From NCBI GenBank assembly GCA_028722515.1, contig JAQYGS010000035.1:1-50022 (forward strand): a stretch of 50,022 nt of DNA, read 5' to 3'. Shown piece by piece: positions 615 through 11,578 of the stretch (positions are counted from its first letter, which is position 1; every line of letters begins with the position of its first letter). Position numbers and translations under genes: made by a program. The DNA comes from Clostridia bacterium. Lineage in GTDB: Bacteria; Bacillota; Clostridia; Lachnospirales; Lachnospiraceae. The notes under the pieces were generated by a model, which saw only the letters and a program-made list of their open reading frames with translations, ran no database searches and was not told the DNA's origin.

Positions 615-734
615 ATAATTTCCTCCTGTTTTAATACTGCGGAGGAATCCTATAAGATTATTATAAGAAAAACGAAGAGATTATACAACCCCATACAACA
701 AGAAAAAAATAAACGAGGCAATAATAGAACCCGT

Positions 735-926
735 AGGGAAATATATACCGTTGCAAACACGTGGATGGAAGAAATAATAAGGCCCGGAGGGAAATATATA
801 CCGTTGCAAACACGCTTGCGCTCGGCTTCACTCGCAGCGGTACTAAGTTCATTCAGATAAATCTGAATTCACTAAGTACCGGCGGCTTCGCAAGGTTTGC
901 AGCCGGTATATATTTCCCTGTCCGGG
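735..926. repeat. Large nested inverted repeat with an upstream direct copy of its left arm
   Basis: gggaaatatataccgttgcaaacacg occurs at about 736-761 and 789-814. The second copy (cccggagggaaatatataccgttgcaaac, 783-811) is matched by gtttgcagccggtatatatttccctgtccggg at 895-926. A second palindrome is nested inside: ggtactaagttcattcagat (839-858) / atctgaattcactaagtacc (861-880). Confidence 0.85.
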
Positions 927-1566
927 TTCCTATGTATTTCATCCGATAGATCCGCGGTGTATGTTCCACTTCACTGACAAAGGATTACTTCCCTTCAAGC
1001 CGGAAACAGTATCCGGGGTTCCAAATCCGTTACACAGCGACAATCTGCAAACGGCAAAATCAGCCTTCCGGGACGCTTACGAGGCTTCCGTCGTGAAGGC
1101 AGGACAGCTTCCGCCACGAATCAACTGTCTGAGCGAAGCGAGTTTTGTGAGTGGCGGAATAAAAGCTGTCCTGCCGCAACAGGAAACGCAGTGCGACCCG
1201 GAGACTGATTTGCCCTCAGCCTATCCGGGTTCGGTTATCTATTTCTTCCGTGGCACAGCGGTGTATGTTCTACTTCACTGGTAATAATTTATTTTCCTGC
1301 AGGTTGGAAACAGTGTTCAGGGTTGCAGATTAGTTACACAGCGACAATCTGCAAACGGCAAATTCAGTCTGCCGGGACGCTTACGAGGCTTCCGTCGTGG
1401 AGGCTGGACAGCTTCCGCCACGAATCAACTGTTTGAGCGAAGCGAGTTTTGTGAGTGGCGGAATAAAAGCTGTCCAGCCGGAACAGGAAACGCAGTGCGG
1501 CACGGAGACTGATTTGCCCTCAGCCGCAACAGGAAACGCAGTGCGCCCCGGAGACTGAATTTGCCC
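921..1566. repeat. Tandem roughly 300-bp palindromic repeat unit: two full copies and a partial third
   Basis: Unit A about 921-1221, unit B about 1222-1524, partial tail 1525-1566. Shared blocks include tccgggttc...gcggtgtatgttc.acttcactg, ttacacagcgacaatctgcaaacggcaaa, cgggacgcttacgaggcttccgtcgt, gacagcttccgccacgaatcaactgt.tgagcgaagcgagttttgtgagtggcggaataaaagctgtcc and aggaaacgcagtgcg. Each unit folds back on itself (1098-1117 with 1151-1175; 1402-1421 with 1455-1479; 1357-1370 exactly complementary to 1552-1565). Confidence 0.9.
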
Positions 1567-1844
1567 TTATTCTGCTTTGTCTTCAAATTCACCTTGCAGA
1601 TTTTCCCAGATTATATTATACTGAATTCACAGTCTTTGACGACTCCAGGTTCATTATAAAATCCAATGAAAAAAAACAAATCATAATCCGGCGGTTCTGC
1701 CACGATTTTTCCAAAATACAATATAATATAATGATCTCATGGTTGTGGGAGTGCGAAGCACGAAACGACTCATGTGGCATTTTTTGAAATTTAAAGCTTT
1801 TGACCCTGGTGTTACCCTGATTTTACAGGAACAGGAGGAACCTG

Positions 1845-9619: not shown

Positions 9620-11578
9620 GTGCGAGCTGCGAAATCAGCATAGCTGATTTCCCCTAGCGAGCGGAAGAAATTCTGCAAGCTCTGGTAAGCTGATAACAAT
9701 ACAGTAGGAAAATCCTATCAGGTAAGGTCTAGCCAACCGCCTGTACCGAGTCCTTGGAATCGAAATGGTAACATTAGGTTTAAGCGTAGGACAGGGAGCA
9801 ACAGAGCCGAAACGAAGGTGAAGTGATTGAGCTGGGAAATTATTATGAGGTTGGAAATGGTCGATGTGTTCTTTTTCACAGCAGACAACACTGCTATAAC
9901 CGCTATGGTGAGGTTATTGTGGCATCCCCCAGTCTGAGAGCTTGGCGAGGTTGATGATAAGTATGTTATCGGAACAGCTGAGGTTCTGTCATTTCCTCGT
10001 AAGAGGTATGGAAACCAAAACAAAGAAATGCGTCAGGAATCCAAATGAACGGCAGGAAGTCCGACACAGTCATAGTATCTAAGAAGTCTGTGAAAACAGA
10101 TGGAGAAAAGGGCTGTGCACTTTATAGCTTCAAGTGATAAGAAACTATGCAGACGAAAGAGAGCTGATGAACATGGTGAACGAGTTGCTTGGAATACAGT
10201 ACAATATCGCAAAAGCAAACAGAACTGACAGAAAGGTTCAAAATCTTGCGTCATATATCAATGAAGATACCCTAAGAGCAGTCCATAAAACTATGGATAG
10301 AAGAAAAGCGTATGGAATTGATAAGGTGACAAAAGAAGATTATGAACAGAATCTTGAGGAAAATCTTGCGAATCTTGTAAAACGGATGAAAAGTGGAAGT
10401 TACCGTCCGAATCCAACAAGGCGAGTCTATATTCCGAAAGAAACAAAAGGCAAAATGAGACCACTGGGAATCTCCTGTTATGAGGATAAACTGGTGGAAA
10501 ATGCGATTGCACAGATACTGGAGCAGATTTACGAACCGAAGTTTTATAATGAGAGCTTTGGTTTCCGTCCAAACAGGAACTGCCATCAGGCAGTGAGGGA
10601 AATCATAGAGATGGTACAGTATCGGAAGACGAATTATGTGGTGGAAGCAGATATCAGAGGATTCTTTGATAATGTAGACCATGAATGGCTGATGAAGATG
10701 CTGCCACATGACATAGCTGACAAAAGATTTCTTGAGATAATTGAGAAATTTCTGAAAGCGGGAATCATGGAAAATGGCAAATTCCTTGACAGCGAACGGG
10801 GAACCCCACAGGGAAATGGAGCCAGTCCAATACTTGCAAATATTTATCTGCATTATGTACTGGACAACTGGTTTGATGTAATTGTAAAGAGACAATGTAA
10901 AGGCGAATGTTATCTGATTCGCTATTGCGATGATTTTGTCTGTTGTTTTCAGAACCAATATGAAGCACAGGTATTCAGGCGGAGACTGGAAGAGCGCTTT
11001 GGGAAATATGGATTGGAGCTGGCGGAGGAAAAGACGAAGATTTTGGAATTTGGGAGGTTTGCCAGGCAAAACCGAAAAGCAAGAGGAGAAAGAAAACCAG
11101 ATACCTTTGACTTCCTTGGTTTCACGTTTTATTGCGGAATGGACGGAAAGAAGCAGTTTTTCCGTTGTAGGGTAAAGACCAGTAAGAAGAAATTCCGCAG
11201 CAAAATCAAGGCAATGAAAGAATGGATAAAGGTTCACAGAGCAATGCCACTAGAGCAGTTATTCAAAACAGTCAATGCGAAACTTCGTGGGCATTACCAG
11301 TATTATGGAGTGACCGACAATACGATAGAAGTGAAGAACTTTCTGATGCAGACAAAATGGTTATTGTTTAAGTGGCTCAATCGGAGAAGTCAGAGAAGAT
11401 GTTATACGATGGATACTTTCTTTAATGGTCTACTTAGAGCTTTTCCATTACTTGAACCAAGTATCAAAGTGAGTTTGTTTTACAGATAGTGTGTGAAAAT
11501 ATAGAGTGAAAAGCCGTATGCGTTAATAGCGCACGTACGGTTTTGAGTAGGGGTATGGGGAGTAATCCCCATATCTAC
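9620..11578 (+). mobile_element. Group II intron with intron-encoded RT/maturase
   Basis: 5' end GTGCGAG at 9620; RT ORF inside; domain V aaagccgtatgcg-ttaatag-cgcacgtacggtttt with AGC triad and CG bulge (about 11507-11545); domain VI stem atgggga-gtaa-tccccat followed by atatctac. The exact 3' boundary is estimated. Confidence 0.88.
10167..11489 (+). CDS. ltrA: Group II intron reverse transcriptase/maturase
   Basis: RT motifs KMRPLGI, FGFRPNRNCHQAV, ADIRGFFDNVDH, GTPQGNGASPILANIYLHYVLD, RYCDDFVCCF, DFLGFTF; maturase region GHYQYYGVTDN. No HNH domain is evident. The longer GTG start at 10134 is possible. Confidence 0.93.
   Translation: MNMVNELLGIQYNIAKANRTDRKVQNLASYINEDTLRAVHKTMDRRKAYGIDKVTKEDYEQNLEENLANLVKRMKSGSYRPNPTRRVYIPKETKGKMRPLGISCYEDKLVENAIAQILEQIYEPKFYNESFGFRPNRNCHQAVREIIEMVQYRKTNYVVEADIRGFFDNVDHEWLMKMLPHDIADKRFLEIIEKFLKAGIMENGKFLDSERGTPQGNGASPILANIYLHYVLDNWFDVIVKRQCKGECYLIRYCDDFVCCFQNQYEAQVFRRRLEERFGKYGLELAEEKTKILEFGRFARQNRKARGERKPDTFDFLGFTFYCGMDGKKQFFRCRVKTSKKKFRSKIKAMKEWIKVHRAMPLEQLFKTVNAKLRGHYQYYGVTDNTIEVKNFLMQTKWLLFKWLNRRSQRRCYTMDTFFNGLLRAFPLLEPSIKVSLFYR

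Follow-up and report, generated by a model that had tools for sequence, protein, structure and literature searches.

Long bulged palindromes with a GC-GNA-GC tip: dispersed intergenic repeats that may be recognised as folded DNA

The window, by which we mean the whole 50,022-nucleotide stretch of Clostridia bacterium DNA analysed here, carries two long inverted repeats in tandem near its start. We asked what kind of element these repeats represent and whether their fold, rather than their sequence, is conserved. A preliminary description of the locus had reported a compensated stem change between the two hairpins and had offered three readings, a MITE-like element, a structured ncRNA, or a protein-bound hairpin.

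Two tandem palindromes in the window

The hairpins of the preliminary description were recovered with arms at 1098-1117/1151-1175 (unit A) and 1402-1421/1455-1479 (unit B), an AATAA bulge in each, near-identical loops, and a single paired arm change, A to T and T to A, at 1101/1172. Both units folded far better than 200 dinucleotide shuffles, with z-scores of -7.0 (A) and -6.4 (B) as RNA and of -6.3 and -6.0 as DNA. Its positions were right, but the hairpins form only the upper half of two larger imperfect palindromes, termed P2 (Table 1). A second palindrome type, P1, adjoins P2 and also accompanies it at other loci of the same genome. The window pair probably originated when a 304-bp unit was duplicated in tandem following insertion.

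Table 1. Coordinates of the repeat features in the window (P2, main palindrome; P1, second palindrome type)
Feature	Position	Strand	Basis or remark
P1 (AGGGAAATATATACCG...CGGTATATATTTCCCT)	715..944	.	adjoins P2, just upstream
Tandem repeat, copy 1 (linker + P2 A)	954..1221	.	direct-repeat comparison
Unit A, full imperfect palindrome (P2; apex strand given)	1053..1215	+	RNA and DNA folds
Unit A, inner hairpin (that of the preliminary description)	1098..1175	+	sequence, inverted repeat
Unit A, conserved apex ACTGTCTGAGCGAAGCGAGTTT	1124..1145	+	same apex across genera and phyla
Unit A, mini-hairpin GC-GAA-GC	1133-1139	+	inside apex 1124..1145
Unit A, asymmetric AATAA bulge	1158..1162	+	sequence, fold; kept as AATAA/ATTA in other copies of the same genome
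Tandem repeat, copy 2 (linker + P2 B)	1258..1525	.	304-bp spacing, 89% identical to copy 1
Unit B, full imperfect palindrome (P2)	1357..1519	+	RNA and DNA folds
Unit B, inner hairpin	1402..1479	+	sequence, inverted repeat
Unit B, conserved apex ACTGTTTGAGCGAAGCGAGTTT	1428..1449	+	mini-hairpin at 1437-1443
Unit B, AATAA bulge	1462..1466	+	sequence
Third copy, right end of P2 only	1523..1561	.	direct-repeat comparison

Units A and B differ at 10 of 163 positions, and the compensated pair, which had been taken as a sign of selection on structure or of arm-to-arm copying, accounts for two of them. Because ten randomly placed differences include one or more such pairs with a frequency of 6.4%, this comparison by itself is a hint and no proof; the case for structural constraint became strong once other copies were compared. 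Two side observations concern the same repeats. Among P1 copies the apical stem re-pairs (TTCAGAT/ATCTGAA versus TTCTGC/GCAGAA), so P1 may covary too, and half P2 elements broken at or near the apex were seen at L005:61-129 and L003:1196-1297, as hairpin cleavage or deletion of the centre predicts.

Variable stems and a conserved tip

Six long copies were found in the genome of the window, three with stems of the GGACAGCTT...AAGCTGTCC type and three of the GCACACCTG...CAGGTGTGC type, all sharing the same apex and bulge, which proves the structural constraint that the A/B comparison could not. The covariation sought among collected copies was likewise present in two other sets. In Blautia (20 copies), 54 of 72 stem pairs showed two-sided changes, giving 319 two-sided cells compared with 97.4 ± 8.4 in shuffled alignments and 55-93 in slid structures. 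In a second Lachnospiraceae genus (13 copies) the changes affected 33 of 61 pairs, with 130 cells versus 45; these shuffled and slid controls remove the kinship of copies only in part. The conserved columns were the apex and the internal-loop motifs, together with the ends CAGC...GCGTCC in Blautia. The two arms of one copy agreed out to about 100 bp, whereas the same arm of two copies was near the alignment baseline.

Between copies at least 95% identical, 130 changes were one-sided and 6 two-sided. At 80-90% identity there were 1041 two-sided changes, of which the 809 Watson-Crick ones are about threefold the approximately 270 predicted by independence, in counts that ignore kinship of copies and in which mismatches are inflated by alignment errors. 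Independent divergence of the arms, the pattern that would speak against a structural reading, was thus confined to the closest copies. Since close copies change mostly on one side and the excess of two-sided changes appears at 80-90%, the process looks like stepwise compensation, not instant arm-to-arm copying. The outermost stems may have another history. In genome G606, palindromy continues past the shared core to a distance from the apex that varies among copies (58-258 bp). At one locus a similar terminator lies in each outer arm, the two in inverted orientation, and relatives have only one there. The outer arms may therefore derive from local DNA, in which case part of their covariation reflects independent origin.

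While stems turn over, the tip is retained far beyond Lachnospiraceae. Species-level genomes were scanned with the pattern ACTGTNTGAGCGNNNCGAGTTT, which gave at least 119 stretches at more than 100 loci, and the apex ACTGTYTGAGC-GNA-GCGAGTTT was found on otherwise unrelated, self-complementary stems in at least eight phyla. The matches listed include Bacteroidota, Pseudomonadota, Desulfobacterota, Nitrospirota, several Bacillota classes, a Thermotoga bin, Gastranaerophilales, and Patescibacteria; some hosts are metagenome bins, whose individual taxon assignments may be wrong. Most of the matches listed fold into hairpins bearing that apex, and a complementary run of at least 8 bases lies beside it in 70 of 109 matches, compared with 1.7% with shuffled partners. 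Genus mates of the window's host likewise carry long bulged hairpins with largely unrelated stems, their main common stretch being the apex.

The free NNN of the pattern was NAG in all 127 distinct matches listed (57 AAG, 30 CAG, 29 TAG, and 11 GAG), independently of the base at position 6 (Y), a rule that yields a GC-GNA-GC mini-hairpin. As DNA, this mini-hairpin is exceptionally stable; loops of the GNA and GNNA kind are particularly so in DNA, and RNA prefers GNRA. The apex loop was GNA in 211 of 216 cases. Variants have a mini-hairpin one pair longer (C-GNA-G) or four-base loops, and among the tetraloops GNYA outnumbered GNRA by 12 to 3 (p 0.035), as DNA GNNA loops would predict. Mini-hairpins of the GC-GNA-GC type serve as aptamer caps in published work. 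Copies on plasmids were not found by distant blastn with window positions 650-1620. As a separate observation, the exact apex occurs in 14 viral contigs (L265-L278), in several of them near a contig end.

Distribution and comparison with known elements

Hairpins were detected in 26 of 299 Lachnospiraceae genomes, where a reversed control pattern gave none, and in 8 of 250 genomes of the phylum, with up to 36 copies per genome. They often form inverted pairs 210-430 bp apart, and 227 of 234 lie outside open reading frames of 200 aa or more, as is the case for intergenic multi-copy palindromes of the REP/REPIN kind. One Blautia locus holds a hairpin in three species (G038, G059, and G035) and lacks it in a fourth (G001), the discrete presence or absence of a small non-coding unit that is typical of MITEs. 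The hairpins of G038 and G059 are essentially identical in a region 92% alike, whereas in G035 the hairpin occupying this site has stems that are very different yet re-matched. This sporadic, multi-copy, intergenic distribution supports the MITE-like dispersal that the preliminary description had listed among its options. At the loci examined, no conserved neighbour gene, cassette-like arrangement, or parent IS was seen; neither an exact target duplication nor a near-identical empty site came to light, and the nearest empty sites were too diverged. Replication-strand bias was absent in three genomes, with leading/lagging counts of 12/12, 5/7, and 10/16.

Several known systems share some of these properties. 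Integron attC sites are ssDNA hairpins read by structure, with extrahelical bases and an unconstrained stem sequence, and the hairpins described here resemble them by analogy, as shape-read hairpins with free stems, but have neither a gene-cassette arrangement nor a consistent neighbour. The ends of IS200/IS605 elements (IS608, ISDra2) are also bulged hairpins, recognised as single-stranded DNA; ours are much longer, occur in several genomes without an associated tnpA, and lack the lagging-strand bias of IS608-type ssDNA transposons. Bacterial MITEs of the RUP, NEMIS, and ERIC type are likewise non-coding, imperfect palindromes of 70-300 bp between genes. In our hairpins, however, no common terminal repeat or parent IS was found, the tip and not the ends is conserved, and many phyla are represented. 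TIR repeats and TIRtrons (Di Nocera 2013, PMC3733652) are longer inverted repeats, some self-complementary, repeated in the genome and forming dimers, but they are defined by a flanking Y1 transposase gene, and our hairpins occur in genomes without a Y1 match. REP, BIME, and REPIN elements with their RAYT are similarly intergenic, dispersed, palindromic, and bulged, often in inverted pairs and sporadic across phyla; they measure 20-65 nt, compared with 160-220 nt or more here, and our hairpins combine variable stems with a conserved apex. The REP foot tag (GTAG/GTGG or CGTC) was not seen at the ends of the window and G606 copies, and Blautia copies end in GCGTCC.

Favoured reading and its alternatives

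A tip that is the same across phyla, on stems that differ yet still pair, points to a mobile element whose shape is what is recognised. We put it at about an even chance that the window units belong to a non-autonomous family of dispersed, REP/MITE-like intergenic palindromes that are mobilised in trans after recognition of the folded DNA hairpin. One strand can form a long bulged hairpin with the GC-GNA-GC mini-hairpin as its cap, and a putative trans-acting enzyme would read the folded strand through apex and bulges, so that the stem sequence could drift freely provided that pairing was kept. A more specific proposal, held only tentatively, is that the family is a new class of shape-recognised DNA element, spread through most of the bacterial tree, in which the d(GC-GNA-GC) tip and the bulge pattern are read by a trans-acting enzyme of non-RAYT type that moves or copies the hairpin and leaves its stem free to become copy-specific.

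We infer, on indirect grounds, that the functional form is folded DNA (ssDNA or an extruded hairpin), because the loops follow DNA rules, with GNYA exceeding GNRA, and because the apex strand leans antisense, shows no 3'-end preference, and belongs to a sporadic multi-copy repeat. The apex strand was antisense to flanking genes more often than sense (62:36, p 0.011), a weak bias, and convergent and divergent sites were equally frequent (25:22). These counts, the lack of a conserved neighbour, and an Rfam search that gave no convincing match for the hairpins even at a permissive threshold make a structured RNA (cis-regulatory, terminator-like, or small RNA) kept for its RNA fold an unlikely explanation, and the ncRNA option of the preliminary description is not favoured. 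The strong covariation in Blautia and the second genus would fit it, as would the RNA folds of both strands (z -7 for one and -9 for the other) and an excess of G.U on the apex strand. G.T exceeded A.C there by 187 to 116 (p 5e-5, with the relatedness of copies still included), but this excess is neutral, fitting any single-strand fold of the apex strand, RNA included. A classical REP/REPIN identity of the hairpins, with a RAYT (TnpA-REP) tyrosine transposase as mobiliser, is more doubtful still. The idea was suggested by a RAYT gene lying between two hairpins in G085 and by Pasteurellaceae Pebbles2 loci; it gains from the dispersed, bulged, often paired intergenic hairpins and from the GCGTCC ends in Blautia, which resemble the CGTC tag that marks one REP superfamily (PMC3733652). 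However, RAYTs were present in 7 of 26 hairpin-positive and 50 of 273 hairpin-negative Lachnospiraceae genomes (p 0.30), G606 with 24 copies had none at the threshold of this association test, and the near-complete positive genomes G028 (26 copies) and G306 had no Y1 transposase match at all. The hairpins are also far longer than 20-40 bp and show no GTAG foot in the copies examined. RAYTs near some hairpins carry short GTAGGGGCG REPs of their own, and RAYTs of the RLKxYDYS kind are flanked by their own short GTAGGGGCG...CGCC repeats in three unrelated hosts (L222, L234, and L252).

The remaining alternatives concern how the arms come to agree. Selfish or neutral palindromes whose structure is not recognised could keep complementarity mainly by template switching during replication, since quasi-palindrome correction can make multi-base compensatory changes in one event, as has been documented (PMC8794818). 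The re-matched stems of G038 and G035 at one site are consistent with this, and so are outer arms that match each other and not other copies. Yet template switching would also erase the best-conserved parts of the elements, namely the apex and the asymmetric bulges, and the 130:6 ratio in close copies is mostly one-sided; we regard it as improbable. It is less probable again that local DNA supplies the palindrome, either created by each insertion or already present where it lands, with the outermost stems being inverted duplications of the flanks and covariation reflecting independent origin. The copy-specific reach of palindromy in G606 and the doubled terminator speak for this possibility, but Blautia copies have a fixed length and conserved ends together with copy-specific stems, and relatives with an empty site have diverged too far to reveal a pre-existing arm.

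A reverse transcriptase was also considered as the mobiliser of the folded-DNA family and rejected, being present in 19 of 26 positive versus 153 of 273 negative genomes (p 0.10) and absent from G408 with its 12 copies. As a separate observation, the window contains a group II intron (RF02005) at 9709-9942 and a reverse transcriptase match at 10431-11129.

The family is apparently undescribed, a variant of the dispersed palindromic repeats, set apart because it exceeds REPs in size, occurs independently of RAYTs, and shows no parent IS as a MITE would; open-literature searches by motif and by description found nothing matching. A tip conserved across phyla despite near-complete stem turnover implies a widespread, not yet named recogniser of DNA shape, and the apex strand could serve as bait for the binding or mobilising protein. 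The family also offers a test bed for how long hairpins keep complementarity, by stepwise compensation or template switching, and a warning against reading a functional RNA into every strongly covarying stretch of bacterial intergenic DNA. Two further arrangements were noted. Accessory hairpins ACTTTCTTTG...CAAAGAAAGT enclose hairpin pairs in Bacteroides, Pasteurellaceae, and Burkholderiaceae (L084, L118, and L152), and in the Blautia genome G028, eight alternating GNA hairpins form a tandem array interleaved with parS-like TGTTTCACGTGAAACA sites at L410:2146-4776, adjoining parA/parB.
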